Under the pieces are notes generated by a model. That model had not been told where the DNA came from, ran no database searches, and was given only the letters and a program-made list of their open reading frames with translations. DNA of 64,000 nucleotides, from contig NZ_FCNY02000006.1 in NCBI RefSeq assembly GCF_001544575.2, positions 310,001 to 374,000 on the forward strand, in the 5' to 3' direction. Each line of letters opens with the position of its first letter. Within the stretch, counting starts at the first letter, position 1. Below are positions 6,569 to 24,406 of this stretch, in pieces. The DNA comes from Caballeronia cordobensis. GTDB lineage: Bacteria; Pseudomonadota; Gammaproteobacteria; Burkholderiales; Burkholderiaceae. The position numbers and the translations under genes were made by a program.

Positions 6569-6961
6569 ATGCCGCTCGTCAGAATCTCGCTCATCAAAGG
6601 CAAGCCGCGCGATCACATCCGCGCCATTTCCAACAGCGTTCACGAAGCGCTCGTCGAAGCGTTCAAAGTCCCCGCCGACGATCGTTTCCAGTTGATCGAA
6701 CAGCGCGAGCGCGACGATTTCATCTACGATCCAGCCTATCTCGGCGTGGAACGAAGCGACGATCTCGTGTTCATCCACATCACCGCGAGCGACTGGCGCG
6801 ACCTCGCGACCAAGAAGGCGTTCTACAAGACGCTGGTCGCGAAGCTCGAGGCATCGCCCGGCCTGCGACCCGACGACGTGATGATCGCGCTGGCGCCGAA
6901 TCGACGAGAAGACTGGTCGTTCGGCCGCGGCATCGCGCAGTACGTGGAGGACGCGGGCTGA
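6569..6961 (+). CDS. Tautomerase family protein (130 aa)
   Basis: A cytoplasmic protein of the larger tautomerase class related to 4-oxalocrotonate tautomerase and MIF. Pro2 (Pro1 after Met removal) is present, as the catalytic base requires, in MPLVRISLIKGK. The stretch FKVPADDRFQLIEQ and the 130-residue size match the Tautomerase_2 type rather than the roughly 60-residue 4-OT type. GGAAGGAAAC lies just upstream of the ATG. The substrate is unknown. It is followed 28 nt later by the GFA gene and may be co-transcribed with it. Confidence 0.85.
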   Translation: MPLVRISLIKGKPRDHIRAISNSVHEALVEAFKVPADDRFQLIEQRERDDFIYDPAYLGVERSDDLVFIHITASDWRDLATKKAFYKTLVAKLEASPGLRPDDVMIALAPNRREDWSFGRGIAQYVEDAG

Positions 6962-6989
6962 ACACAATCAGGAGGGAGACAAAGCCACG

Positions 6990-7361
6990 ATGAACCCGAC
7001 GACCCTGAAAGGTGCGTGCCATTGCGGCACAGTCACGTTCGAAGCCGATACGCCGGCCGAACCCGCGAAGCGCTGCAATTGCAGCTTGTGCCGGCGGCGC
7101 GGCGCGGTGATGTCGCCGCCGTTCACGCGAGACAGGCTGCGCATTCTGTCGGGCGAGGACGCGCTCGTGCTCTATCAGTTCAACACGCGCGTGGCGAAAC
7201 ATTTCTTCTGCAAGCACTGTGGAATTTACACGTTCCACCAGACGCGTTCGAATCCGCAGGAGTGGCGCGTGAACCTCGGCTGCATCGAAGGCGTGAACGC
7301 CTATGCGCTCGCGTCGTCCGTCGCGGATGGCGCAAGCAGTTCCGTCGTGACGGATGAATAG
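6990..7361 (+). CDS. GFA family zinc protein (glutathione-dependent formaldehyde-activating-like)
   Basis: A 123-residue zinc-binding protein of the GFA/CENP-V fold. The metal ligands are visible as Cys10 and Cys12 in ACHCGTV, the group CNCSLC at about 29-34, and FFCKHCG at about 74-78. Some members capture S-hydroxymethyl-glutathione, but most are uncharacterised, so the enzyme name is only a family label. An AGGAGG-type ribosome site precedes the ATG. It sits between the tautomerase and phosphoesterase genes. Confidence 0.85.
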   Translation: MNPTTLKGACHCGTVTFEADTPAEPAKRCNCSLCRRRGAVMSPPFTRDRLRILSGEDALVLYQFNTRVAKHFFCKHCGIYTFHQTRSNPQEWRVNLGCIEGVNAYALASSVADGASSSVVTDE

Positions 7362-8977: not shown

Positions 8978-9142
8978 CACGGCGCGCGCTCCCTCTCACA
9001 TCGGCGATTGGAAATAAAGCCCCGCATTAGACGCGCCGCGCGCCTTTACAAAGCCGCGGCATTGCCCTATTGGTGAGGGGGCCTTCGCGTCCAGAGACAC
9101 GAAGACACGAAGGCGTCGCGATACACGATGAGGAAACATGAC

Positions 9143-10228
9143 ATGACCCGACTGGCCCGAAAGCTCGCATGCATCGTCGCCCTCGCACTGCTCTCGACGT
9201 CGCTCGCGCTCGCTTGCACGCGCGCGCTGTACGTCGGCGACAAGGGCCTCGTGATAACGGGCCGCACGATGGACTGGTCCGAAGACATGCGCTCGAATCT
9301 CTGGGTGATGCCCGCGGGGATCGATCGCGACGGTAACGCGGGCCCGCGCTCGATCAAGTGGAAGTCGAAGTACGGCAGTGTCGTGGTATCGGGCTATGAG
9401 ATCGGCACGGTGGACGGCATGAACGAACGCGGGCTCGTCGCCAATGCGCTTTATCTCGCGGAGACCGACTACGGCAAGCCCGATCCCAAGCGCGATCCGA
9501 TGTCGATCAGCCTGTGGGCGCAATACGCGCTCGATAACTTCGCGACCGTCGGGCAAGCGGTCTACGTGATGTCGCGCGAGCCGTTCCAGATCATCGCGCC
9601 GCCGCTGCCCAACGGCAAGCCGCTGACCATTCACCTGTCCTTGTCGGATGCGCGCGGCGATTCCGCGATCTTCGAATACATCAACGGCAAGCTGATCATC
9701 CATCAGGGCAAGAAGTACAAGGTCATGACGAACTCGCCCATCTACGACGAGCAACTCGCGATCGATACGTACTGGAAGAGCGTCGGCGGCCTGGGCTTCC
9801 TGCCGGGCACGAACCGCGCGGCGGACCGCTTCGTGCGCGCGTCCTTTCTGCTCGACGCCATCCCGAAGCAGGCCGATCCGAACTACATGGCGGGCGTGCC
9901 GCAGGGCTCGTATTCGTTTCAGGCCGTGGCGAGCGTGATGAGCGTGATGCGGTCGGTGAGCGTGCCGCTTGGCATCAGCACGCCGGAGCAGCCGAATCTT
10001 TCTTCGACGATATGGCGCACGGTCTCGGATCAGCAGAACATGATCTATTACTTCGATTCGGCGACGCGGCCCGATACGTTCTGGGTCTCGCTCAAGAAGC
10101 TCAACCTGAATCCGGGCGCGCCGGTGATGAAGCTCACGATCGATGCGGGGCAGGTTTTTTCCGGCGAAACAGCGGGCAATTTCGTCGCCACGCCCGCGTT
10201 CGCGTTCATGCCCGCGAAGGCGCCTTGA
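9143..10228 (+). CDS. Exported choloylglycine hydrolase/penicillin V acylase family enzyme
   Basis: A linear-amide C-N hydrolase of the Ntn superfamily. A signal peptide ends in LALA, directly followed by CTRALY, so export would expose Cys as the N-terminal nucleophile. Downstream are GRTMDWSEDM and the Asn/Arg-containing VDGMNERGLVANALYL, typical of the family. Gram-negative members often cleave penicillin V and acyl-homoserine lactones, so a quorum-quenching role is possible. The start at 9143 has AGGAAA at ideal spacing; an in-frame ATG at 9128 lacks a good site. Confidence 0.87.
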   Translation: MTRLARKLACIVALALLSTSLALACTRALYVGDKGLVITGRTMDWSEDMRSNLWVMPAGIDRDGNAGPRSIKWKSKYGSVVVSGYEIGTVDGMNERGLVANALYLAETDYGKPDPKRDPMSISLWAQYALDNFATVGQAVYVMSREPFQIIAPPLPNGKPLTIHLSLSDARGDSAIFEYINGKLIIHQGKKYKVMTNSPIYDEQLAIDTYWKSVGGLGFLPGTNRAADRFVRASFLLDAIPKQADPNYMAGVPQGSYSFQAVASVMSVMRSVSVPLGISTPEQPNLSSTIWRTVSDQQNMIYYFDSATRPDTFWVSLKKLNLNPGAPVMKLTIDAGQVFSGETAGNFVATPAFAFMPAKAP

Positions 10229-10304: not shown

Positions 10305-11000
10305 GTGCAAGGCTCGAAGCGCACGGCATTCAGCGGCCCGGCGCTCGTTCGCCTGCTGGCACATTTTGCCGATCTCGACGTACAAGAACCCGCTCAATCG
10401 CTGTCGGACCGTCTGAGCCAATGGCTCGGCTGGACCGATGCGATCGCGCTCTCGACCGCGCTCGCGACCGATCCGCCCGCCGTCTCCGGCGCGCGATCCG
10501 CCGCGCGCAACGTGGAAGACGAGTGCGCGCGCGTGCGGACATCGCTCGCCGGCGCGCTCGCGCGCGAAGATGCGGCCGCGCGCCGCAGGCATCGCGCCGC
10601 CGTGCAGCCGGCAGCGGATCAGCCTGACGCCGATTTCGCGGACTTCCGTCAGCGCTATGTGTCCCTGCAGCAAGCCATGGACACCGATATCGGCGCGCTG
10701 CGCACGCGTCTCAGATCGATGCTCGCGGCGAGATCGCCCGAGATGGCGCGTCTCGCCGTCGTCGATGCCGTGATGGAACAGGCACTGAGCGCGCGCGAGC
10801 GTGCTCTGCTCGCGAATGTGCCCGCGCTGCTCGGCAAGCATTTCGAGCGCCTGAAGCACGCGCACGCTTCAGCGGAGACATCCGCGCCCGGCGCGTGGCT
10901 CGACGTGTTCCGCAAGGATCTGCAAAGCGTCGTGCTCGCCGAACTGGATGTTCGTTTTCAACCGATCGAAGGCTTGCTCGCGGCTCTTCGCACCCGCTAA
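10305..11000 (+). CDS. DUF3348 family protein, first gene of motor-like operon
   Basis: A 231-residue soluble, mostly helical protein with the DUF3348-type N-terminus (FSGPALVRLLAHFADLDV) and Arg/Ala-rich helices. There is no signal peptide or membrane segment, so it should be cytoplasmic. Its start is a GTG preceded by GGGGA. It opens a four-gene operon with a MotA-like channel protein, a MotB/OmpA-like stator protein and DUF2894. The gene order suggests it is an effector, regulator or tail-binding partner of that complex. The function is not known. Confidence 0.8.
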   Translation: MQGSKRTAFSGPALVRLLAHFADLDVQEPAQSLSDRLSQWLGWTDAIALSTALATDPPAVSGARSAARNVEDECARVRTSLAGALAREDAAARRRHRAAVQPAADQPDADFADFRQRYVSLQQAMDTDIGALRTRLRSMLAARSPEMARLAVVDAVMEQALSARERALLANVPALLGKHFERLKHAHASAETSAPGAWLDVFRKDLQSVVLAELDVRFQPIEGLLAALRTR

Positions 11001-11010
11001 CTGGCTCGCT

Positions 11011-13224
11011 ATGCCCCGAAATCTATTGAACATCGCCGTCTTCTCGATTGGTCTCGCCGCGATCTGCGGCATCGGTATCGCTTATATCGGCTCGAATGCG
11101 GTCGCGTTCGCCGTCAGCGTCGTGATCGCCGCATGCTATCTCGCGGGCGCGGCCGAACTGCGCCGCTTTCACCAGATCACCGGCACGCTGGAGCAGGCCA
11201 TCGCGCAACTCGCGAGCGCGCCGCGCAGCCTCGCCGTGTGGCTCGATACGCTGCATCCGAGCCTGCGCAATGCGGTGCGCCTGCGAATCGAAGGCGAACG
11301 CGCGGCCTTGCCCGGTCCGGCGCTCGCGCCGTATCTCGTCGGCCTGCTGGTGTTGCTGGGCATGCTCGGCACGCTGCTCGGCATGGTCGCGACCTTGCGC
11401 GGCACGGGCACCGCGCTGCAGAGCGCATCGGACCTCACGGCGATCCGCGCATCGCTCGCCGCGCCGGTCACGGGTCTCGGCTTCGCGTTCGGCACGTCGA
11501 TCGCGGGCGTCGCGGGCTCCGCGATGCTCGGCCTCTTGTCCACCTTGTGCCGGCGCGACCGTCTGCATGTAACGCAGCAACTCGACGCGAAAATCGCGGG
11601 CACGCTGCGTGTCTTCACGCAGGCGCATCAGCGCGAAGAGACGTTCAAGATGCTTCGGCTCCAGACGGAACTGATGCCCAAGCTCGTCGATCGCCTTCAG
11701 TCGATGACGCTCGCGATCGAGCAGCAAAGCCTTGCCGCGAACGAGCGGCAACTCGCGAATCAGGATGCGTTCCACGCGAAGACGGAGACGGCTTACCGGC
11801 GGCTCGCGACCTCGGTCGAGTTGTCCCTGAAGCAGAGCGTCGCGGACAGCGCGCGGGCCGCGAGCGCCGCGCTCCAGCCCATCATGCAGACGACGATGGA
11901 CGGCATCGCGCGCGAAGTCAGCGCTTTGCACGGCAACGTCGAACAGGCGGTCACGCAACAACTCGAAGGGCTGTCGAGCGGATTCGAGGCGTCTTCGGCG
12001 AAGGTCGCGGAGATCTGGAACGCATCGGTTGCGGAGCATGCGCAGTCGAACGCGGCGCTCGCCGGCGAGATGGGCGCATCGCTCGATCGTTTCGCGCAGG
12101 CCTTCGATCAGCGTGCGGCGAGTCTCGTCGATGGCGTGTCCGCGCAGATGGAGCGCGTGTCGAGCGGGCTGGAGTCGTCGGTTGCGAAACACGGGCAATC
12201 GAACGATGCGCTCGTCGTGCGCATGGAGGCGTCGCTGGATCGCTTCGCGCAGACTTTCGATGCGCGTTCTTCCGGCCTGATCGATGGCGTCTCGAGCCGT
12301 CTCGAAGCGGCGACGGGCAGCATGTCGCACGCCTGGACCGATGCGCTCGCCCAGCACGTGCGCGCCAGCGAGCAGACAGCCGCGCAGAACCAAGGTGCAC
12401 TGACGGCGGCGGTGGCGAGCTTCGAAGAACACGCGGCAGCGCTCGTGCAATCGGTCGATCAGCGCAGCGAAGCGCGTCTCGATGCATGGAGCGATACGCT
12501 CGACACGATGGCCGCGTCGCTGCGCGAGCACTGGCAGGCAGCGAGCGCGGCGACGGCGGATCGTCAGAAAGAGATCTGCGACGCGCTCGCGCAAACCGCG
12601 CGCGACATGTCCGCGCAATCGCAGGCGCACGCGAGCGCGACCATGGCGGAGATCGGGCGTCTCGTGCAGGCTGCGTCGGAGGCGCCGAAAGCGGCGGCCG
12701 AAGTCGTCGCCGAAATGCGTCAGAAGCTCTCCGATTCGATGGTGCGCGATACCGCGATGCTCGAAGAACGCAGTCGTCTGCTGGCGACGGTCGAAACCCT
12801 GCTCGATGCGGTGAATCACGCATCGAACGAGCAGCGTGCCGCCATCGACGCACTGGTCGAATCTTCCTCGACCGTGCTCGAACGTGTCGGCACTCAGTTC
12901 ACGGGCACGGTCGAATCCGAAGCCGGCAAGCTCAACGCGATGGCCGCGCAGGTGACGGCGAGCGCGGTCGAAACGGCGAGCCTGTCGGATGCGTTTGGCG
13001 CGGCGGTGCAGGCCTTCGGTGAATCGAACGACAAGCTCGTCGCGCATCTGGAGCGCATCGAAAGCGCGCTCGGCAAATCGCTTGCACGCAGCGATGAGCA
13101 ACTCGCGTATTACGTCGCGCAGGCGAAGGAAGTCATCGATCTGAGCATGCTGTCGCAGAAGCAGATCGTCGAGGACTTGCAGCATCTCGCGGGTCAGCGC
13201 GTGGCCGGAGCACGGGCGGCATGA
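11011..13224 (+). CDS. DUF802 protein: MotA/ExbB/ZorA-like channel subunit with long coiled-coil tail
   Basis: A 737-residue inner-membrane protein. Two membrane segments lie at about residues 5-48. Segments at about 106-130 (LLGMLGTLLGMVATL) and 150-178 (APVTGLGFAFGTSIAGVAGS) read like TM3 and TM4 of MotA/TolQ/ExbB, including a Thr where ExbB lines the ion path. From about 185 to the end it is a helical coiled coil with a 51-residue internal repeat. This plan matches ZorA of Zorya anti-phage systems. The ATG at 11011 (11 nt after the DUF3348 stop) was chosen; the frame extends to 10948. It overlaps the OmpA gene by ATGA. Confidence 0.85.
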   Translation: MPRNLLNIAVFSIGLAAICGIGIAYIGSNAVAFAVSVVIAACYLAGAAELRRFHQITGTLEQAIAQLASAPRSLAVWLDTLHPSLRNAVRLRIEGERAALPGPALAPYLVGLLVLLGMLGTLLGMVATLRGTGTALQSASDLTAIRASLAAPVTGLGFAFGTSIAGVAGSAMLGLLSTLCRRDRLHVTQQLDAKIAGTLRVFTQAHQREETFKMLRLQTELMPKLVDRLQSMTLAIEQQSLAANERQLANQDAFHAKTETAYRRLATSVELSLKQSVADSARAASAALQPIMQTTMDGIAREVSALHGNVEQAVTQQLEGLSSGFEASSAKVAEIWNASVAEHAQSNAALAGEMGASLDRFAQAFDQRAASLVDGVSAQMERVSSGLESSVAKHGQSNDALVVRMEASLDRFAQTFDARSSGLIDGVSSRLEAATGSMSHAWTDALAQHVRASEQTAAQNQGALTAAVASFEEHAAALVQSVDQRSEARLDAWSDTLDTMAASLREHWQAASAATADRQKEICDALAQTARDMSAQSQAHASATMAEIGRLVQAASEAPKAAAEVVAEMRQKLSDSMVRDTAMLEERSRLLATVETLLDAVNHASNEQRAAIDALVESSSTVLERVGTQFTGTVESEAGKLNAMAAQVTASAVETASLSDAFGAAVQAFGESNDKLVAHLERIESALGKSLARSDEQLAYYVAQAKEVIDLSMLSQKQIVEDLQHLAGQRVAGARAA
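12031..12306 (+). repeat. Tandem 153-nt coding repeat in the coiled-coil tail
   Basis: Residues starting at 341 and at 392 of the channel protein repeat with a 51-residue period: an A-H-QSN-AL-M-A segment followed by SLDRFAQAFD, then the same pattern with SLDRFAQTFD. The DNA copies at 12079 and 12232 are exactly 153 nt apart and differ mainly at synonymous or conservative positions. The second copy decays after about 12306. Confidence 0.75.
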
Positions 13225-13868
13225 ACGAGGACATCGACGGCGGCACCGAATACGCCGCACCGATCTGGGCCGCATTCGCCGATCTGATGTCGGTGCTGCT
13301 GGGCGCGTTCGTGCTGATCCTCGTCGGCGTCATCGGCGTGCAGTTGCAGCTCGAGACCAAGCTCGACGAAGAAGTGAAGCACCGGCAGGAAGAAACGCAG
13401 CGCCGTCAGACGCTCGAACAGGCGCTCGCGGGGCCGCTCGCATCGGGACGCGTGACGCTCGTCAACGGGCGCATCGGCATCAGCGGCAACGTGCTCTTCG
13501 CGCTCAATTCCGATCAGTTGCAGCCGCAGGGCCGCGACGTGCTGAAGAGCCTGGCCGGACCGCTGTCCACGTATCTTCGCGCGCATGAAGAGATTCTCAT
13601 GGTGAGCGGTTTCGCGGACGATCAGCAGGTCCACGAGAACAACCGCCGTTTCGCGGACAACTGGGAGCTCTCCGCGAAACGCGCATTGACGGTGACGCGC
13701 GCGCTGATCGATGCGGGCGTGCCGTCGCCATCGGTGTTCGCGGCGGCCTTCGGCTCCGAGCAGCCCGTGAGTTCCAACGCGGACGAAGAAGGGCGCGCGA
13801 AGAACCGGCGCGTCGAGATTTCGGCCGTGCCGCGGCCGACGAACGGCGTCGCGAAGGCTCATGAATAA
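13221..13868 (+). CDS. MotB/ZorB-like OmpA-domain stator protein
   Basis: A 215-residue protein with one membrane segment at about residues 15-40 containing Asp21 in AAFADLMSVLLGAF. This aligns by eye with the proton-binding Asp of MotB (YADFMTAMM) and of ZorB. A short linker leads to a C-terminal OmpA peptidoglycan-binding domain (about 80-205) with NSDQLQPQGRDVL, GFADD, LSAKRA and NRRVEI. It would anchor the MotA-like partner encoded upstream to the cell wall. It overlaps both neighbours (4 nt and 8 nt), so translation is coupled. Confidence 0.88.
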   Translation: MNEDIDGGTEYAAPIWAAFADLMSVLLGAFVLILVGVIGVQLQLETKLDEEVKHRQEETQRRQTLEQALAGPLASGRVTLVNGRIGISGNVLFALNSDQLQPQGRDVLKSLAGPLSTYLRAHEEILMVSGFADDQQVHENNRRFADNWELSAKRALTVTRALIDAGVPSPSVFAAAFGSEQPVSSNADEEGRAKNRRVEISAVPRPTNGVAKAHE

Positions 13869-14436
13869 CGCGGCATCCGCGCGCGCGATGCTCGACGCGT
13901 GGCGCGCGAACGGCGACGATCGCGCGAATCCCGTGCGCTTTCATCTCATCGATGCGCTGGACCGGCGCGCGGCGGCGCATGAAGGCGAAGCGCGTCGCAT
14001 GATCGACGAACGGATCGCGCAATTGCTCGATGCGTACCGGCGCGATATCGATGCGATGAACGTGCCTATCGCGACTAAAGAGGTGCCGCGCGGTCCGCTT
14101 GCCGCACTCGTCGACGACATCGCGAAGCAATCGGCGATGAACCCGGCGGCGCATGCGGAATTGCTCGATTACTTTCGCGCGGTGTGGTCGAAGGTCAGCG
14201 CGGAGAAGCAGTGGCGCGATTCGTTCGCGCAGGTGCCGAAGAACGCGGGCCCGCTCAATTCCAGCAGTCTCGTGCATCGTTCGCTCTCGCTCATGCGCGA
14301 GCTATCGCCGGCGTATCTTCAGCAATTCCTCTCGTACATCGATGCGCTTTCATGGATGGAAGCGATGAACGGTCCCGTCACGGCCGTATCGAAAGAGGCG
14401 TCGAACGCGAAGAAGGGCGGACGCAGAAAGAAATAG
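13861..14436 (+). CDS. DUF2894 family protein, last gene of motor-like operon
   Basis: A 191-residue soluble protein of the DUF2894 type, starting inside the last codons of the OmpA gene. The N-terminal half has helices (RFHLIDALDRRAAAHEGEAR), the centre has GPLNSSSLVHRSLSLMRELSPAYLQQFLSYIDALSW split over two helices, and it ends in a basic KKGGRRKK tail that could bind nucleic acid. There is no signal or membrane segment. It always seems to travel with DUF3348, DUF802 and the OmpA protein in my memory of Burkholderia genomes, which implies a joint role. Function unknown. Confidence 0.8.
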   Translation: MNNAASARAMLDAWRANGDDRANPVRFHLIDALDRRAAAHEGEARRMIDERIAQLLDAYRRDIDAMNVPIATKEVPRGPLAALVDDIAKQSAMNPAAHAELLDYFRAVWSKVSAEKQWRDSFAQVPKNAGPLNSSSLVHRSLSLMRELSPAYLQQFLSYIDALSWMEAMNGPVTAVSKEASNAKKGGRRKK

Positions 14437-14488: not shown

Positions 14489-15472
14489 TTACGCCAGCCA
14501 GCCTTTGATCGTGCTCGCCATCACGTTCGTCGAAATGCCATAGCGATCGTGCAAGGTGGGCAGGGCGCCCGCATCGAGGAAGGCATCCGGCAGTGCAATC
14601 TGGCGATACGTCGGCGTGACGCCCGCCGTCAGCAGCGCGGTCGCGACTGCTTCACCCAGCCCGCCGATCGTCGTATGATTTTCCGCCACCACGACGAGAC
14701 GGCCCGAACGCTTCGCCTCGCGGATGATCGTTTCGGTATCGAGCGGCTTGATCGTCGGTGCGTGCAGCACGGCGACATCGACGTTATCGGCCTGCAGCGC
14801 CTTGGCGGTTTCGAGCGCGCGCATCGTCAGGATTCCGGATGAAATGATGAGCACGTCGCGGCCGTCGCGCAGCAGCTTTGCCCGGCCGAGTTCGAACTGG
14901 TAGTCGTATTCGTCGAGCACGGCGGGCACGTTGCCGCGCAACAGGCGCGCATACACCGGGCCCTTATGCGCGGCAATCGCGGGCACCATCTGCTCGATAT
15001 CGAGCGCATCGCACGGATCGATCACCGTCATGTTCGGCATCGCGCGCATCAGCGCGAGGTCTTCCGCGGCCTGATGGCTCGGGCCATAACCGGTCGTGAG
15101 CCCGGGCAACGCCGCGACGATCTTCACATCGAGATTGTCTTCGGCGATCGTCTGATGGATGAAGTCGTACGCGCGTCGCGTCGCGAACACCGCATAGGTC
15201 GTAACGAACGGTTGCGCGCCTTCATGCGCGAAGCCCGCGGCCGCGCCCATCAGCAATTGCTCGGCCATGCCCATCTGATAGTAACGCTCGGGAAATTCCT
15301 TCGCGAAGATATGCAGGTCCGTGTACTTGCCGAGATCGGCCGTCATGCCGATGACGTTGCTCTTCTTACGCGCAAGCTCGACCAGTGCATGGCCGAACGG
15401 CGCGGAACGCGTGACCTGTCCTTCGCTTGCGATCGATGCGATCATCGCCGATGTCTTGAGGCGCGTGCTCAT
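14489..15472 (-). CDS. Transketolase, C-terminal subunit (split enzyme)
   Basis: A 327-residue polypeptide corresponding to the C-terminal half of transketolase (pyrimidine-binding and C-terminal domains). The cofactor-activating Glu lies in RYYQMGMAEQLLMGAAAG, and GPSHQAAEDLALMRA matches the family. The true start is the ATG at 15472, overlapping the upstream N-subunit stop by ATGA. Together the two subunits should transfer two-carbon ketol units with thiamine diphosphate. Split transketolases of this type often sit in peripheral sugar pathways rather than the housekeeping pentose phosphate route. Confidence 0.9.
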   Translation of the reverse strand: MSTRLKTSAMIASIASEGQVTRSAPFGHALVELARKKSNVIGMTADLGKYTDLHIFAKEFPERYYQMGMAEQLLMGAAAGFAHEGAQPFVTTYAVFATRRAYDFIHQTIAEDNLDVKIVAALPGLTTGYGPSHQAAEDLALMRAMPNMTVIDPCDALDIEQMVPAIAAHKGPVYARLLRGNVPAVLDEYDYQFELGRAKLLRDGRDVLIISSGILTMRALETAKALQADNVDVAVLHAPTIKPLDTETIIREAKRSGRLVVVAENHTTIGGLGEAVATALLTAGVTPTYRQIALPDAFLDAGALPTLHDRYGISTNVMASTIKGWLA

Positions 15473-16311
15473 GCTTGTCTCCCTGCTTCGAGTGCTTCGA
15501 GCGCCAGTTGCCATTCGTGGGCATCGACGCGGATGAAATGGTTTTTCTCGCGCTGTTCGAGGAAGGGCACGCCGCAGCCCATCTTCGTATCGCACACGAT
15601 GATGCGCGGCTTCGCTTCCTTCAGATTGCGCGCGTTGTCGAAGGCCTGCTTCACGGCGTCGATATCGTTGCCGTTCACGCGCTGCGTGTACCAGCCGAAG
15701 GCTTCGAGTTTCTCGACGAGCGGCTCGAACGCCATGATCTGCGTCGAAGGGCCATCGGCTTGCTGATTGTTCACGTCGATCATCGCGATGAGGTTATCGA
15801 GCTTCCAGTGCGCCGCCGACATGAGGCCTTCCCAGATCGAGCCTTCGTCGAGCTCGCCATCGGAGAAGAGCGTGTAGACGAAGGACTTCGAACCCTTGCG
15901 CTTGAGGCCGAGACAGCGGCCGACCGCAATCGTGAGACCTTGCCCCAGCGAGCCGCCGGACATTTCCATGCCGGGCGTGTAGCTCGCCATGCCGGACATG
16001 GGCAGGCGGCTGTCGTCGCTGCCGTAGGTTTCGAGTTCTTCCTGCGGCAGGATGCCGGCTTCGAAGAGCGCGGCGTACAGCGCGATTGCGTAGTGGCCGT
16101 TCGAGAGCAGGAAGCGGTCGCGTTCTTCCCATTCGGGATCGTCGGGGCGGTAGTTCATCGCGCCGAAGTACGCGACGGCCAGCACGTCGGCGATATCGAG
16201 CGCCTGGCCGATATAGCCCTGGCCTTGCACTTCGCCCATCAGAAGCGCGTTGCGGCGAATGCGGTAGGCGCGCTCGGCGAGCGTCACCTCCTCGATGACG
16301 GGAGTACTCAT
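15469..16311 (-). CDS. Transketolase, N-terminal subunit (split enzyme)
   Basis: A 280-residue polypeptide matching the thiamine diphosphate-binding half of transketolase. The stretch LSNGHYAIALYAALFEAG, the GGSLGQGLTIAVG loop and the cofactor/Mg motif GDG-equivalent SDGELDEGSIWEGLMSA ending in IDVNNQQ are all visible. It overlaps the C-subunit gene by 4 nt and follows the MFS gene by 29 nt, giving a clear operon. The partner halves must assemble for activity. The donor and acceptor sugars are unknown. Confidence 0.9.
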   Translation of the reverse strand: MSTPVIEEVTLAERAYRIRRNALLMGEVQGQGYIGQALDIADVLAVAYFGAMNYRPDDPEWEERDRFLLSNGHYAIALYAALFEAGILPQEELETYGSDDSRLPMSGMASYTPGMEMSGGSLGQGLTIAVGRCLGLKRKGSKSFVYTLFSDGELDEGSIWEGLMSAAHWKLDNLIAMIDVNNQQADGPSTQIMAFEPLVEKLEAFGWYTQRVNGNDIDAVKQAFDNARNLKEAKPRIIVCDTKMGCGVPFLEQREKNHFIRVDAHEWQLALEALEAGRQA

Positions 16312-19479: not shown

Positions 19480-20067
19480 TTACTTCGGCGCCTTCGGCAC
19501 GCGCCCCATCAGGAAGAACTCGTCGTTCGGGCGCATCGAGATCACATTCGCCATGCGGTTCGAGAGCCCGAAGAACGCCGTGATCGCCGCGATATCCCAC
19601 ACGTCTTCATCGCTGAAACCATGCGCATGCAGCGCGGCGAAATCGTCGTCGTTCACGGCGCCCGAGTCGCGGCATACCTTCAGCGCGAAGTCGAGCATGG
19701 CCTTCTGACGCGCCGTGATATCCGCCTTGCGATGATTCACCGCCACCTGATCCGCGATTAGCGCATGCTTTTCGTAGATCCGCAAAATGGCCCCGTGCGC
19801 GACGACGCAATACAGGCAACCGTTCACCGCGCTCGTCGCGACGACGATCATCTCGCGCTCCCCTTTGGAGAGGCCGCCGTCTTTCAGCATCAGCGCATCG
19901 TGATAGGCGAAGAACGCGCGGAACTCGTCGGGCCGATGCGCCAGCGTGAGAAACACGTTCGGCACGAAGCCCGCCTTTTCCTGCACCTCGAGAATGCGCG
20001 CGCGGATATCGTCGGGCCAGTCTTGCGGATCGGGAACGGGATAGCGGCTGATGGGCGGTTGCGTCAT
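19480..20067 (-). CDS. Peroxidase-related protein (AhpD/carboxymuconolactone decarboxylase-like)
   Basis: A 195-residue protein of the AhpD-like superfamily. The redox/proton-relay motif is NGCLYCVVAHGA, with the two Cys three apart and the following His, and the helical flanks (GLSKGEREMIVVATSAVN) fit. Such proteins act as alkylhydroperoxidases or remain uncharacterised. It is the first gene of the leftward run that continues into LysR after 6 nt, so it may belong to the same transcription unit as the split transketolase genes. Confidence 0.85.
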   Translation of the reverse strand: MTQPPISRYPVPDPQDWPDDIRARILEVQEKAGFVPNVFLTLAHRPDEFRAFFAYHDALMLKDGGLSKGEREMIVVATSAVNGCLYCVVAHGAILRIYEKHALIADQVAVNHRKADITARQKAMLDFALKVCRDSGAVNDDDFAALHAHGFSDEDVWDIAAITAFFGLSNRMANVISMRPNDEFFLMGRVPKAPK

Positions 20068-20115: not shown

Positions 20116-22740
20116 TCAGCGCGTGACCGTCAGCGACGATAAGAGCTTGAGCAGGCTGTCCACATTCACCGGCTTCACGAAGTGATAATCGAAGCCCGCC
20201 GATTGCGCGCGCAAGCGGTCTTCGGCTTGTCCGTAGCCGGTGATCGCGATCAATAGCGGCGTGGTATCGCCCTTGCGGCGCAGTCGCCGCGCCAGTTCGT
20301 AGCCGTCGATATCCGGCAGGCCGATATCGAGCAGCGCCACATCCGGTTTCAGCAAAGGCGCGGACTCCAGCGCTTCGGCCGACGAATACGCGACGCGCGC
20401 CACATGGCCTTCCGACTCGCACAGCATCGCGAGCGAATCGGCGGCGTCGCGGTTATCGTCCACGACGAGAATGCGCAGCGCCGTGCGCGCCTCGCGCAGG
20501 CTCGTCTCCGACAGCGCGAGCGCCGAATGCCGTTCATGATGATGCAGACGCGGCAAGCGTACGGTCACGGTCGTGCCGAGACCGGGCCCGGCGCTTTGCA
20601 CGGTGATCGTGCCTTTGTGCATTTCCACGAGCTTTTTCACGAGCGAAAGCCCGATGCCCAGGCCGCCGTTCGAGCGGTCGAGCGTGCGCTCGCCTTGCGA
20701 GAAGAGCTCGAAGACTTTCGGCAGCAGGTCCGCGGAAATGCCGGTGCCCGTATCGGCGATGACGATCGAAACCCATCCGTCGTCCGCCTGCACGCTCACG
20801 GTGATGCGGCCTTCCTCCGGCGTGTACTTGCTCGCGTTGTTGAGCACGTTCACGAGGATCTGCGAGAGCCGCGTGGGATCGCCGCAGACCCAGGTGGTCG
20901 CATCGGATACATCGACCTGGATGTTCTGCGAGCGTGATTCGACCATGCCCGCGATTGCTTCGACCGCGTGATAGACCGCCGTGCCGACGAGTATCGGTTC
21001 CAGTTGCAGCGCAATGCGTCCCTGCGTGATGCGCGACACTTCGAGCAGGTCGTCGACGATGCGCGTCATGTGCTCCACTTGTCTGCGCATCAGATCGATG
21101 AGCTCACGCAGTTGCGTCTCGCCGTCCCCATCCTTCTGCTCCCGGTCCTTCTGCAATAGCGCAATGGCCGTGCGCAGCGGCGCGAGCGGATTGCGCAGCT
21201 CGTGCGCGAGCATGGCGAGGAACTCGTCCTTGCGGCGTCCCGCTTCGCGCAGCACGAGTTCCATGTGCTTGCGCTCGGTGATATCGATCACGCTGCCGAT
21301 GATGCGCAACGGTTCGCCTTCCTTGTTGCGCTGAAGCAGGGCGCTGCCTTGCATCCACTGCTCGCCATGCCGGTTGCGCACGCGGAATTCGAAGTGCCCA
21401 TCCGGGTCGTCGCCATGCGCGAGGCTGCGCACGTAGCGGTCGAGCGTCGCGCTGTCGTCGGGATGCACGCGCGCGAGCGCCGCTTCATAGCTGAGCGTCT
21501 CGGCAATCTGACGCTCGCCGCCGGTTTCGAGCGAGAGCGTCCATGTAGCGAGTTCGAGCGATGCGATGTGAATGTTCGCGGCCTGCATCGCAACGGTCAG
21601 GCGCAGGCTGCGCGCTTCGATCGCGGCCTGGGCTTCATAGCGCGGCGTCACATCGGTCGTCGTGCCGAACCATTCCTGCAGGCAGCCCTTGTCGTCGTAG
21701 AGCGGCGCGGCATGCGCCTCGACCCTGCGATAGACGCCATCGCGCCGGTACATGCGAAAGGTGAGCGTGCGCGCAGTGCCTTCGCGCAATGCCTCGAGCC
21801 ATGCCTGATGGGTGCGCTCGCGATCGTCGGGATGGATGTAGTCGAGCCAGCCCCACCCGGATAACACGTCGGCCGGCGTGCCCGTGAACTGCTCCCATTC
21901 GCCGCCCGAAGGAAGGATCTCGCCGTTCGCATTGGCGGACCAGACGAGCGCGCCCGTCGTCTCGACCAGCGCGCGATAACGCCGTTCAGAAAGGCTCAAA
22001 CGCTCTTCGTCGGCCCGTTGCGCGCTGATATCGAAGCTCACGCCATAGACGCGCGTGAGCACGCCATGCCGGTCGAACTCGGGATGCCCGCGCATGCGCA
22101 GCCAGCGGCGTGTGCCCTGATCGCCTTCGAGCACGAAATCGAATTCGAACGGACCGCCATCGCGCAATGCCTCGGTGAGCTTGCGTTGAAACGGCTCGCG
22201 ATATTCCGGCGCGACGCGGTCCCATAGCTCCGAGAGCAGCACGGCTTCGGTGCCCGATGCAAAGGAATAGAGCGCGGCGGTCTGCGCGGTCATGCGCACG
22301 ACGCGCGTTTTCATGTCCCATTCCCACGCGCCCATGCGTGCGCCCGCGAAAGCCGCCTGCAGACGCCGCTCGCTCGCCTCGTACATCTCCCATGCGTGAC
22401 GGCACTCGTGGATATCGATTGCGACGCCGACCGTATCGGCGATGTTGCCTTCTTCGTCGCGCCGTGCCTGTAGATGCAGCGTATGCCAGCGGAATGCGGC
22501 ATCGTTGCGCAGCAGGCGCACATCGACATTGCGCAGCAGCGTGCCGCCGCTCATCTGGCGCAATGCGTCGAGAACAGGCTGAATATCGTCGGGGTGGACA
22601 AAAGCTTTCCAGTGCTGGCCGACGAGCTCGGGAAAAGGGACGCCGAGATAGCGGCACGCCCAAGGGTTCGCATACTGAATCACGCCGTCGCGCGCCGCGC
22701 GCCACACGAACGATGGCAGGAAATGGGCGGGATCGTGCAT
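20116..22740 (-). CDS. Soluble PAS-rich hybrid histidine kinase
   Basis: An 874-residue sensor kinase with no membrane segment, so it senses a cytoplasmic cue. Four PAS/PAC modules cover about residues 1-510, each ending in the VGVAIDI / VSFDIS / TTTDVT / SVIDIT type motif. HisKA follows with the phospho-acceptor in MLAHELRNPLAPL, then the ATPase domain (N-box LVNVLNNASKYT, GLGIGLSLVKKLVE) and a C-terminal receiver (VVDDNRDAADS, phospho-site in LLDIGLPDIDG, Lys in FVKPVN). No response regulator gene is adjacent, so its output partner is elsewhere. Confidence 0.92.
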   Translation of the reverse strand: MHDPAHFLPSFVWRAARDGVIQYANPWACRYLGVPFPELVGQHWKAFVHPDDIQPVLDALRQMSGGTLLRNVDVRLLRNDAAFRWHTLHLQARRDEEGNIADTVGVAIDIHECRHAWEMYEASERRLQAAFAGARMGAWEWDMKTRVVRMTAQTAALYSFASGTEAVLLSELWDRVAPEYREPFQRKLTEALRDGGPFEFDFVLEGDQGTRRWLRMRGHPEFDRHGVLTRVYGVSFDISAQRADEERLSLSERRYRALVETTGALVWSANANGEILPSGGEWEQFTGTPADVLSGWGWLDYIHPDDRERTHQAWLEALREGTARTLTFRMYRRDGVYRRVEAHAAPLYDDKGCLQEWFGTTTDVTPRYEAQAAIEARSLRLTVAMQAANIHIASLELATWTLSLETGGERQIAETLSYEAALARVHPDDSATLDRYVRSLAHGDDPDGHFEFRVRNRHGEQWMQGSALLQRNKEGEPLRIIGSVIDITERKHMELVLREAGRRKDEFLAMLAHELRNPLAPLRTAIALLQKDREQKDGDGETQLRELIDLMRRQVEHMTRIVDDLLEVSRITQGRIALQLEPILVGTAVYHAVEAIAGMVESRSQNIQVDVSDATTWVCGDPTRLSQILVNVLNNASKYTPEEGRITVSVQADDGWVSIVIADTGTGISADLLPKVFELFSQGERTLDRSNGGLGIGLSLVKKLVEMHKGTITVQSAGPGLGTTVTVRLPRLHHHERHSALALSETSLREARTALRILVVDDNRDAADSLAMLCESEGHVARVAYSSAEALESAPLLKPDVALLDIGLPDIDGYELARRLRRKGDTTPLLIAITGYGQAEDRLRAQSAGFDYHFVKPVNVDSLLKLLSSLTVTR

Positions 22741-22928: not shown

Positions 22929-23114
22929 TCAGCCCGCTTCGCCAACGTCTTTCGGATCCGGCAACTCGCCCACCTTGCTTTCGTCCTGGCGCTCGGGCGG
23001 CGCGGGCTCGTCCGTCATGGCGCGCTTTTGCTCGTCGGATAATCGCCGGTCCGCAACGTTCGGGTCCTCGGGCGTCTGCTTCGGCGGCGTCGCGCGATCG
23101 GTGGGTTCGCTCAT
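22929..23114 (-). CDS. Small hydrophilic hypothetical protein (61 aa)
   Basis: The ORF has a textbook AGGAG ribosome site eight bases before the ATG at 23114. The product is short, highly charged and Pro-rich (TPPKQTPEDPN, DEPAPPERQDESK), with no signal peptide or membrane segment, and is probably disordered. I do not recognise a family. It lies between the kinase and the divergently oriented epimerase. The good start signal and codon usage support a real gene. Confidence 0.6.
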   Translation of the reverse strand: MSEPTDRATPPKQTPEDPNVADRRLSDEQKRAMTDEPAPPERQDESKVGELPDPKDVGEAG

Positions 23115-23251
23115 GACAAGGCTCCTGGTAGTCGTCATCGATGAAATAGGGATTCGCATCGGACGTGCCCGGTCCGCGATCAGGCATAGCCGATGCTGCA
23201 ACGCCTTCCCGATGTTATCGATGCTGCGACGGATAGCTTTTGAAATCGCGT

Positions 23252-24406
23252 ATGGCAAACACGAACAAGGCGCTCATCGTTTCCGCGGCTTTAGCCTCGG
23301 CAATGTGGATGCCGTTGCGCGCAGCGGCGGCGTCGATTGCTTCCGCGCCGTATGGCGCGACGCAGCAAGGGCAGGCCGTCGTGCAATACACGCTCTCGAA
23401 TGCGCGCGGCGTGACGATGAACTGCATCACGTATGGCGGCATCGTCACGCGGCTCGATGTGCCGGACCGGCGCGGACGTCGCGCGGATATCGTGCTGGGC
23501 TTCGGCTCGCTTGGCGACTATGAGAAGTACAACGGCAAGATTCATTTCGGCGGCTTGGTCGGGCGCTATGCGAACCGCATCGCCGACGGACGCTTCGACC
23601 TCGATGGACACACCTACAAGTTGCCCGTCAACGAGCCGCCGAACACGCTGCACGGCGGCCCGCACGGTTTCGACGAAAAAGTCTGGACCGTGGTCAGGAC
23701 GTTTCAGGGTACACAGGGCGCGGGCGTGCAGCTTCGTTATGTGAGCAAGGACGGCGAAAACGGCTTTCCCGGCACGCTGACCGTCGATGTCACGTACACG
23801 CTCACGGACGACAACGAAGTGCGCATCGACTACCGCGCGAAGACGGATAAGCCGACGGTCGTGAACCTCACGAATCACAGCTACTTCAATCTCGCGGGCG
23901 AGGGCAGCGGCAGTGTCGAAGGACAACTCGTGATGATCGCGGGATCGGGCTATACGCCGACGCGTCCCGATTCGATTCCGACGGGCGAGATCGCGAGTGT
24001 CGAGAACACGCCGCTGGATCTGCGCGCGCTGACGCCGATCGGCGCACGGCTGCGGTCGTCGAACCAGCAGATGCGTTTCGCGCACGGCTACGACCACAAC
24101 TGGAAGCTCAACAAGAATGGCCAGCACAATGGCGAGGCGACCTTTGCGGCGCGCGCCTACGATCCGTCGAGCGGACGCGTGCTGGATGTCTACACGACCC
24201 AGCCCGGCCTGCAGTTCTACACGGGCAATGGTCTCGATGGCAGCGTGATCGGCGCGTCGGGCACGGCGTACCGGCAAACCGATGGCTTCGCGCTCGAAAC
24301 CCAGCATTTCCCCGATTCGCCGAATCATCCGGCGTTTCCCTCGACCGAACTCAGGCCCGGCGACGAGTTTCACGAAGTCACGGTCTGGAAGATCGGCGTG
24401 CGGTGA
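23252..24406 (+). CDS. galM: Aldose 1-epimerase (galactose mutarotase), exported
   Basis: Interconverts alpha and beta anomers of aldoses. The mature domain carries family motifs ITYGGIVTRLDVPD, FGGLVGRYANRIADG, the catalytic His in TNHSYFNLAGEGSG, and YDHNW, with a Glu near the end in ALETQHFPDSPNHP. An N-terminal hydrophobic stretch ending in LRAAAA looks like a signal peptide, so it should act in the periplasm. The ATG at 23252 is preferred; a TTG at 23240 is in frame. It stands alone, not in a gal operon. Confidence 0.88.
   Translation: MANTNKALIVSAALASAMWMPLRAAAASIASAPYGATQQGQAVVQYTLSNARGVTMNCITYGGIVTRLDVPDRRGRRADIVLGFGSLGDYEKYNGKIHFGGLVGRYANRIADGRFDLDGHTYKLPVNEPPNTLHGGPHGFDEKVWTVVRTFQGTQGAGVQLRYVSKDGENGFPGTLTVDVTYTLTDDNEVRIDYRAKTDKPTVVNLTNHSYFNLAGEGSGSVEGQLVMIAGSGYTPTRPDSIPTGEIASVENTPLDLRALTPIGARLRSSNQQMRFAHGYDHNWKLNKNGQHNGEATFAARAYDPSSGRVLDVYTTQPGLQFYTGNGLDGSVIGASGTAYRQTDGFALETQHFPDSPNHPAFPSTELRPGDEFHEVTVWKIGVR

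Follow-up and report, generated by a model that had tools for sequence, protein, structure and literature searches.

Anatomy, distribution and probable exchange of a predicted Zorya type III operon from Caballeronia cordobensis

In this paper we describe four adjoining genes in a 64,000-nucleotide stretch of the Caballeronia cordobensis genome (hereafter the window; positions 310001-374000 of contig NZ_FCNY02000006.1, within an 8.2-Mb genome). Their open reading frames lie at 10305-11000, 10948-13224, 13221-13868 and 13861-14436, all on the forward strand like every feature given below, which is where the initial annotation had placed them. They encode a DUF3348 protein, ZorA, ZorB and a DUF2894 protein, in this order. 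All four proteins match the type III models of PADLOC, with E-values from 3.9e-75 to 0, and from these matches the genes almost certainly represent a complete Zorya type III operon. Chance can be excluded because of these E-values and because the order is kept in 135 of the 135 family genomes where it can be tested. The nearest named relatives of the window's ZorB are from Caballeronia, with 98% to C. catudaia.

The operon is, judged by these matches, an already known system; the observation of it was correct, and the novelty that the initial annotation implied is contradicted by the type III matches of all four genes. Zorya type III was described in 2021 in the PADLOC paper, where 6,401 Zorya gene pairs (zorBC in the text) flanked by genes for DUF3348 and DUF2894 proteins are named as this type (PMC8565338). 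The same paper reports that a four-gene type III system from Stenotrophomonas nitritireducens lowers plaquing in E. coli BL21-AI, and suggests regulation of ZorAB as the role of the two additional proteins. The pair which had been called uncharacterised soluble partners is the defining ZorF and ZorG of this published type (PMC8565338). Since DUF3348 and DUF2894 beside ZorAB are the published definition of type III, the missing ZorC, ZorD and ZorE are expected. The names of the pair need care. In the text of two papers, PMC8565338 among them, the DUF3348 protein is ZorF and the DUF2894 protein ZorG, and the labels of PADLOC-DB 2.0.0 are the opposite. We use the database labels here, with DUF3348 as ZorG and DUF2894 as ZorF.

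The zorB3 gene (13221..13868; PDLC00651, E=1.2e-116) encodes a MotB-like protein with one transmembrane helix, in which Asp21 is found (codon 13281..13283, from sequence and alignment), and an OmpA/peptidoglycan-binding domain at residues 92-196 (13494..13808; PF00691, 2.4e-17). The MotB-like character, the membrane Asp21 and the OmpA domain had been recognised in the initial annotation. Asp21 is invariant in 16 aligned sequences, the window's included, and the type II ZorB of S. kujiense likewise has D21 (PMC11890865). From the presence of the OmpA domain, ZorB3 is predicted to bind peptidoglycan. The protein aligns with chain B of 8VVN over residues 9-206 (E=1.6e-6), and MotB and OmpA-family PDB chains score higher than 8VVN_B through the OmpA domain. 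In NCBIfam it matches NF006547 (hypothetical protein) at 4.6e-117. Among the best 25 of the 40 NCBIfam models matched, only PRK09040 (hypothetical protein) is over its cut-off and the MotB equivalogs stay far under theirs, which does not identify ZorB3 as a flagellar MotB.

The longest open reading frame of zorA3, a MotA/ExbB/TolQ-like motor protein with a long cytoplasmic tail, begins at 10948, and the gene itself more likely spans 11011..13224. Position 1 of the PADLOC ZorA3 model PDLC00650 (E=0, 1169.5 bits) corresponds to residue 22 of the frame, the ATG at 11011, and this Met22 is invariant in 17 aligned ZorA proteins including the window's. The start is therefore probably 11011 and not 10948, and the apparent 53-bp overlap with the DUF3348 gene a start-codon artefact, which would leave a 10-nt gap between the DUF3348 stop and ZorA. 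Of the earlier description of these genes as overlapping or tightly spaced, the 4-bp overlap of ZorA and ZorB stands, and it is found in 74/80 related loci; the overlap of the first two genes does not. From the likely start ZorA has 737 amino acids, of which about 520 form the tail, somewhat fewer than the approximately 550 first proposed.

The identity of ZorA as a channel protein depends chiefly on the type III models of PADLOC, because the Pfam MotA/ExbB models are silent (no match at E<=0.1) and the best PDB match of the motor, chain C of 8VVN (type I ZorA), is weak (E=5e-4; residues 109-195 of the 239 queried). The two proteins do follow the ZorA/ZorB plan as was suggested, with the nearest PDB chain for the motor coming from a Zorya protein; their likeness to MotA and MotB is above background for ZorB against MotB, but weak for ZorA outside the Zorya models. 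From conservation, the 8VVN_C match and hydropathy we place the motor core, with its two hydrophobic segments, at residues 121-210 of the frame (11308..11577). Its mean majority-residue frequency is 0.90-0.95 (30-residue blocks, 17 aligned sequences). At the other end of the protein, residues 571-750 (12658..13197) form a conserved tail tip with frequencies of 0.80-0.93 on the same measure, highest in residues 571-630 and 661-750 (0.82 or above). In the middle of the protein, at residues 391-450, the frequency is only 0.27-0.37.

Between motor and tip lies a rod, in which Pfam finds DUF802 in three stretches (11971-12129, 12175-12282 and 12289-12447; 9e-29). Across 103 distinct, related ZorA tails the hydrophobic residues recur with a period of 3.66 residues (power 15.4, against 1.03 in shuffled tails and 0.25 at the heptad period of 3.5). 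By this periodicity the rod is predicted to be a hendecad coiled coil, with an 11-residue repeat (period 11/3). Hendecad coiled coils form nearly straight rods, and a helix rises 1.5 angstrom per residue. If the tail were one continuous helix, the approximately 520 residues of the window's ZorA would reach about 78 nm and the longest tail about 150 nm, both as upper bounds. In 135 loci, the end of the DUF3348 match and the start of the ZorB match are 637 to 1226 codons apart (median 816). When the 32 distinct tail lengths are ranked, 7 of the 31 consecutive differences can be divided by 11, where the null gives 2.2 (P=0.005), and congruence modulo 11 is seen in 64 of 496 pairs, against 44.6 under the null (P=0.0085). 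An excess of congruent pairs is also seen at moduli 9 and 17, and a Rayleigh test is not significant at period 11 (p=0.13), with p=0.009 at 11/3 and p=0.05 at 3.6. That the rod changes its length in steps of 11 is thus suggestive only, the tails being related and hence non-independent.

The two small proteins flank the motor genes. The DUF3348 gene (ZorG3 in PADLOC-DB; 10305..11000) encodes 231 amino acids that are predicted to be all-helical and match PF11828 (2.2e-87) and PDLC00658 (2.3e-94). The DUF2894 gene (ZorF3; 13861..14436) encodes a helical protein of 191 amino acids with matches to PF11445 (6.7e-53) and PDLC00652 (3.9e-75), so that both proteins are present as first reported. The AF2 model of ZorG has 8 helices (pLDDT 80, pTM 0.75). 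That of ZorF is helical but poor (pLDDT 63, pTM 0.37), and its Lys/Arg-rich C-terminus is modelled at low confidence. A PDB sequence search at E<=1 gave no convincing relative for either protein, the best being 0.018 for ZorG (a scaffolding-myosin fusion) and 0.37 for ZorF. A Foldseek search with the ZorG model gave no match at E<=0.001, NCBIfam gave none for either protein, and beyond the two DUFs Pfam gave sub-threshold matches only (Mst1_SARAH 0.046, Barstar 0.067). No enzyme fold was recognised by Pfam, NCBIfam and PDB sequence searches of ZorF and ZorG or by Foldseek for ZorG, which does not prove the absence of an enzyme. The lack of convincing PDB relatives for both proteins, and of a significant Foldseek match for ZorG, could also point to a new, unrelated motor system which merely resembles Zorya. 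This is hardly credible, given that the published type III models recognise each of the four genes.

The neighbourhood of the operon consists of ABC transporter genes, a phosphoesterase, a choloylglycine-hydrolase-family gene, a split transketolase, an MFS transporter, an SDR, a LysR regulator, a carboxymuconolactone-decarboxylase-family gene and a sensor kinase. PADLOC matches among the 10 neighbouring genes scanned are at the level of domains only (kinase, receiver and permease parts). We rejected a defence island at this site: the neighbours are metabolic, and none of those examined is recognisably defensive. In agreement with the initial annotation, PADLOC found no ZorC, ZorD or ZorE in the operon or these 10 neighbours, a scan that did not extend to the small open reading frames at 6569-7361, 19480-20067 and 22929-23258. 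Zorya type I was rejected by the absence of zorC and zorD from the operon and the 10 neighbours and of any NF033914 match at E<=0.001 in the window's genome, and type II by the absence of a ZorE match in the same genes. As a control for type I we searched the 200 sampled genomes of the family with NF033914. There were matches in 54 at E<=0.001 and none over the 190-bit cut-off; the best scores, in two genomes (G094 and G114), are 120-123 bits, and many of the weak matches fall at the type III loci themselves. Type I Zorya as drawn by NF033914 is absent from this sample, and the control says only that.

Of the 15 closest named loci (L004-L018), 13 have the operon between the choloylglycine-hydrolase-family gene and the split transketolase. 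Leaving out 12 genomes which were taken as the window's own clade, it adjoins the same transketolase in 14 of 45 other genomes of the genus (for 11 of these 14 the arrangement was observed directly, in a set of 30 loci). A search for an empty site gave no clean case: in the 30 genus loci, with the operon elsewhere, the stretch after the transketolase is without the choloylglycine-hydrolase gene.

DUF3348 is found in 48 of 57 genomes of the genus, one copy each (that of G055 in two frame-broken pieces), and none of the nine that lack it exceeds 5.1 Mb. In the family, DUF3348, DUF2894 and strong ZorB3 matches are found in an identical set of 137 of the 200 sampled genomes. In every unsplit locus (135/135) DUF3348, ZorB and DUF2894 follow each other in this order on the same strand of a single contig, and a gap of the size of ZorA separates the first two; in the other two genomes (G147, G188) the operon is divided between contigs. 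No match to DUF3348 or DUF2894 over the curated cut-offs lies away from the channel genes in the 200 genomes, three second matches elsewhere (G105; G037, G149) being all under them. A Corynebacterium glutamicum control genome has one DUF2894 match over the cut-off. By a hand count on rounded genome sizes, the operon is present in 126 of the 137 family genomes of at least 5.0 Mb, leaving 11 without it, versus 11 of the 63 below this size. Few genomes outside the family have it: DUF3348 was found in 7 of 369 genomes of the class, where the other three genes follow in order, some as partial matches. All four genes are ordered in 35 of 35 extracted loci (28 from the family and 7 from outside, again with some partial matches), which were picked for holding DUF3348. 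Among 72,556 plasmid records 27 contain ZorG, seven of them typed mobilizable; none of 50,697 phage records does. The 25 listed of these 27 plasmid records are as large as secondary chromosomes or megaplasmids (0.59-3.5 Mb).

Conservation of type III inside one species has already been published, as type III Zorya is described as a highly conserved defence system of Ralstonia solanacearum (PMC13064858). Family-wide counts of type III were not seen in the published papers searched, a search that did not extend to supplementary files. What the present analysis adds is these counts, the anatomy of ZorA with its motor, rod and tip, the contrast in dN/dS, the evidence of exchange and the all-helical model of ZorG.

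The near-core, single-copy status and the metabolic neighbourhood are not typical of defence systems and count against a defence role. They raise the question whether the operon encodes a housekeeping Tol/Exb-like envelope motor of Burkholderiaceae, whose anti-phage effect in E. coli would be a by-product of over-expression. In favour of such a motor stand the single copy in 48/57 genus and 137/200 family genomes and in nearly all large ones (126/137 at 5 Mb or more), the small size (5.1 Mb at most) of the nine genus genomes that lack it, and the absence of recognised defence genes among the 10 scanned neighbours beyond generic domain matches. However, the 11 genomes of at least 5 Mb without the operon argue against it, as does the published reduction of plaquing by another type III system (PMC8565338), and its flanks differ in other genera, as seen in loci from Paraburkholderia and Achromobacter.

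The inheritance of the operon also speaks against a purely housekeeping motor. Built from 28 genomes and 1305 columns, the tree of the concatenated operon has 7 of 25 splits in common with the tree of rpoB, the one marker used as species reference, where shuffled labels share 0.27 on average and 3 at most. A quick operon tree had four strongly supported conflicts with rpoB, of which only the grouping of g10 (G085, G190) with g3 keeps high dual support (100/99) in a careful tree. In the careful tree, holding the rpoB clade g3+g24 together is rejected by the AU test (p=0.0002), whereas holding the five genomes of the genus together is not (p=0.065). The test on g3+g24 rejects a strictly vertical core operon for the family as a whole. 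Trees of the single parts (G, A, B+F) agree with each other in 9-10 of 25 splits and with rpoB in 5-7. They are poorly supported: of the 6 strong splits in the A tree 1 is in strong conflict with rpoB, and of the 3 in the G tree and the 6 in the B+F tree none is. We read these trees as a sign that the operon has passed between genera as one unit, on at least one occasion, amid near-universal retention in large genomes. Since the single-part trees are weak and only one conflict is robust, this reading depends on the concatenation and chiefly on a single clade.

The rates of change within the operon differ between its parts. In pairwise Nei-Gojobori comparisons with 15 Caballeronia loci, median dN/dS is 0.268 for ZorF, 0.245 for ZorG and 0.221 for the ZorA middle, and 0.166 for the motor stretch, 0.105 for the tip stretch (12658-13221) and 0.080 for ZorB. 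Five flanking genes, each of which could be compared in 11-15 loci, have 0.047-0.072 at similar dS; a sixth, the MFS transporter, is excluded for being out of frame. ZorF, ZorG and the rod thus have about four times the dN/dS of the flanking genes, and ZorB and the tip much less of an excess. This is a further point against a housekeeping motor, which we consider improbable overall. As all values are below 1, they indicate faster change under constraint and are no proof of positive selection. The same values (0.08-0.27 across the parts of the window's operon), being all well below 1, argue against a decayed or inactive copy. Some relatives may be damaged: at 2 of the 80 related loci (L047, L067) motor and tip of ZorA do not share one frame, and ZorG and ZorB are frame-broken in G055, through decay or assembly error. 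The window's copy has four intact frames and has kept Asp21 and the motor residues, and we regard its decay as very improbable.

We are quite confident, by analogy, that the operon as a whole is best explained as a Zorya type III anti-phage motor working like types I and II, whose motor structure has been solved (PMC11890865; review PMC12904381). Five ZorA and two ZorB would assemble in the inner membrane into a rotary motor powered by ions. When injection of phage DNA disturbs the envelope, the OmpA domain of ZorB would grip the peptidoglycan, ions would pass via the Asp21 site and the motor would turn the long straight rod of ZorA. The conserved tip of the rod might then engage the two small helical proteins, which would execute or relay a block on the phage. 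For type III, the 5:2 assembly, the sensing and the rotation are inferred from the other types. The tip as a dock for the DUF3348 and DUF2894 proteins is suggested by its conservation, and we give this somewhat less than an even chance.

An anti-phage role in the Caballeronia host itself seems probable. The rarity outside the family, the exchange inside it and the faster-changing partners fit such a role. Against our preferred explanation of an anti-phage motor stand the poor model of ZorF, the failure of the Pfam MotA/ExbB models to see ZorA, the small proteins without a recognised enzyme fold and expression data from Burkholderia cenocepacia K56-2. On infection of that strain, expression changed only in the first one or two genes of its Zorya I and Zorya III operons, and neither is among the systems that the authors term transcriptionally active (PMC12584637). 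In the literature searched, we found no tested mechanism for the small type III proteins, only a proposal, and (supplements not covered) no phage test of any Burkholderiaceae Zorya III copy.

A more far-reaching version of the anti-phage reading is speculative, and we think it rather doubtful. Type III would be an immune motor without nuclease or helicase, which persists in large-genome Burkholderiaceae and is renewed by horizontal transfer. Its straight rod would have drifted twofold in length, often by whole 11s, with motor and tip fixed, and the tip would present or move ZorF and ZorG at the injection site and halt the phage without cutting DNA. If this were true, rod length would be a tunable reach and ZorF and ZorG a new non-nucleolytic Zorya output. 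Type III is the least described Zorya, and its anatomy of motor, rod, tip and partners shows where to look. As the operon is near-core, a single natural copy is available for deletion in many members of the family. Together, distribution and anatomy make the role of the two small proteins easier to attack.

Compared with known systems, the operon is closest to the Zorya type III of S. nitritireducens, which has the same four proteins in the same arrangement around zorAB (PMC8565338). No tested feature differs between the two, only host and sequence, and ZorA length varies among members of the type. With flagellar stators (MotAB, PomAB) and TolQR/ExbBD the likeness is more distant: ZorB is homologous to MotB mostly via the OmpA domain. 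Unlike in these systems, ZorA has a tail of about 520 residues, and ZorB3 falls far under the MotB cut-offs (best 25 of 40 models). With Zorya types I (ZorABCD) and II (ZorABE) the operon shares the MotA/MotB-like ZorAB core, which is ZorA5B2 in those types, the OmpA-type domain of ZorB and the long ZorA tail. The membrane Asp of the solved complexes is D24 in type I and D21 in type II, and D21 in the window's ZorB3; types I and II require this Asp, the peptidoglycan-binding site and the ZorA tail (PMC11890865). In contrast to both types, the window's operon has two small helical proteins in place of ZorC and ZorD or the ZorE nickase. And while the size of the components is well conserved within each of the families of types I and II (PMC11890865), the length of ZorA in type III varies about twofold.

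The operon is adjoined by a gene of the choloylglycine hydrolase family (window 9128-10228). The same gene is also found near Zorya type III in other loci, upstream of the system in locus L020 and downstream of it in L047, L051 and L082. The window furthermore contains a transketolase (14489-16311), which is split into two separate overlapping ORFs for its N-terminal and C-terminal parts, and a large hybrid sensor kinase (20116-22740) in which a kinase and a receiver domain accompany several PAS domains.

In the related loci L047 and L067 the ZorA motor is read in a different frame from the tip; either the tail has undergone a frameshift or its repeats were misassembled. Two-piece matches were found for ZorG, and likewise for ZorB, in the sampled genome G055. 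The rpoB marker of G143, the genome carrying L120 and L121, was matched in two overlapping pieces with one internal TGA.

In the control genome of Corynebacterium glutamicum DUF2894 gave a match above the cut-off and DUF3348 did not; this match is possibly an unrelated DUF2894-like protein.

The names of the two small proteins (window 10305-11000 and 13861-14436) are interchanged between the literature and the database: DUF3348 (10305-11000) is ZorF in the text of two papers, one of them the PADLOC paper (PMC8565338), but is labelled ZorG in PADLOC-DB 2.0.0.
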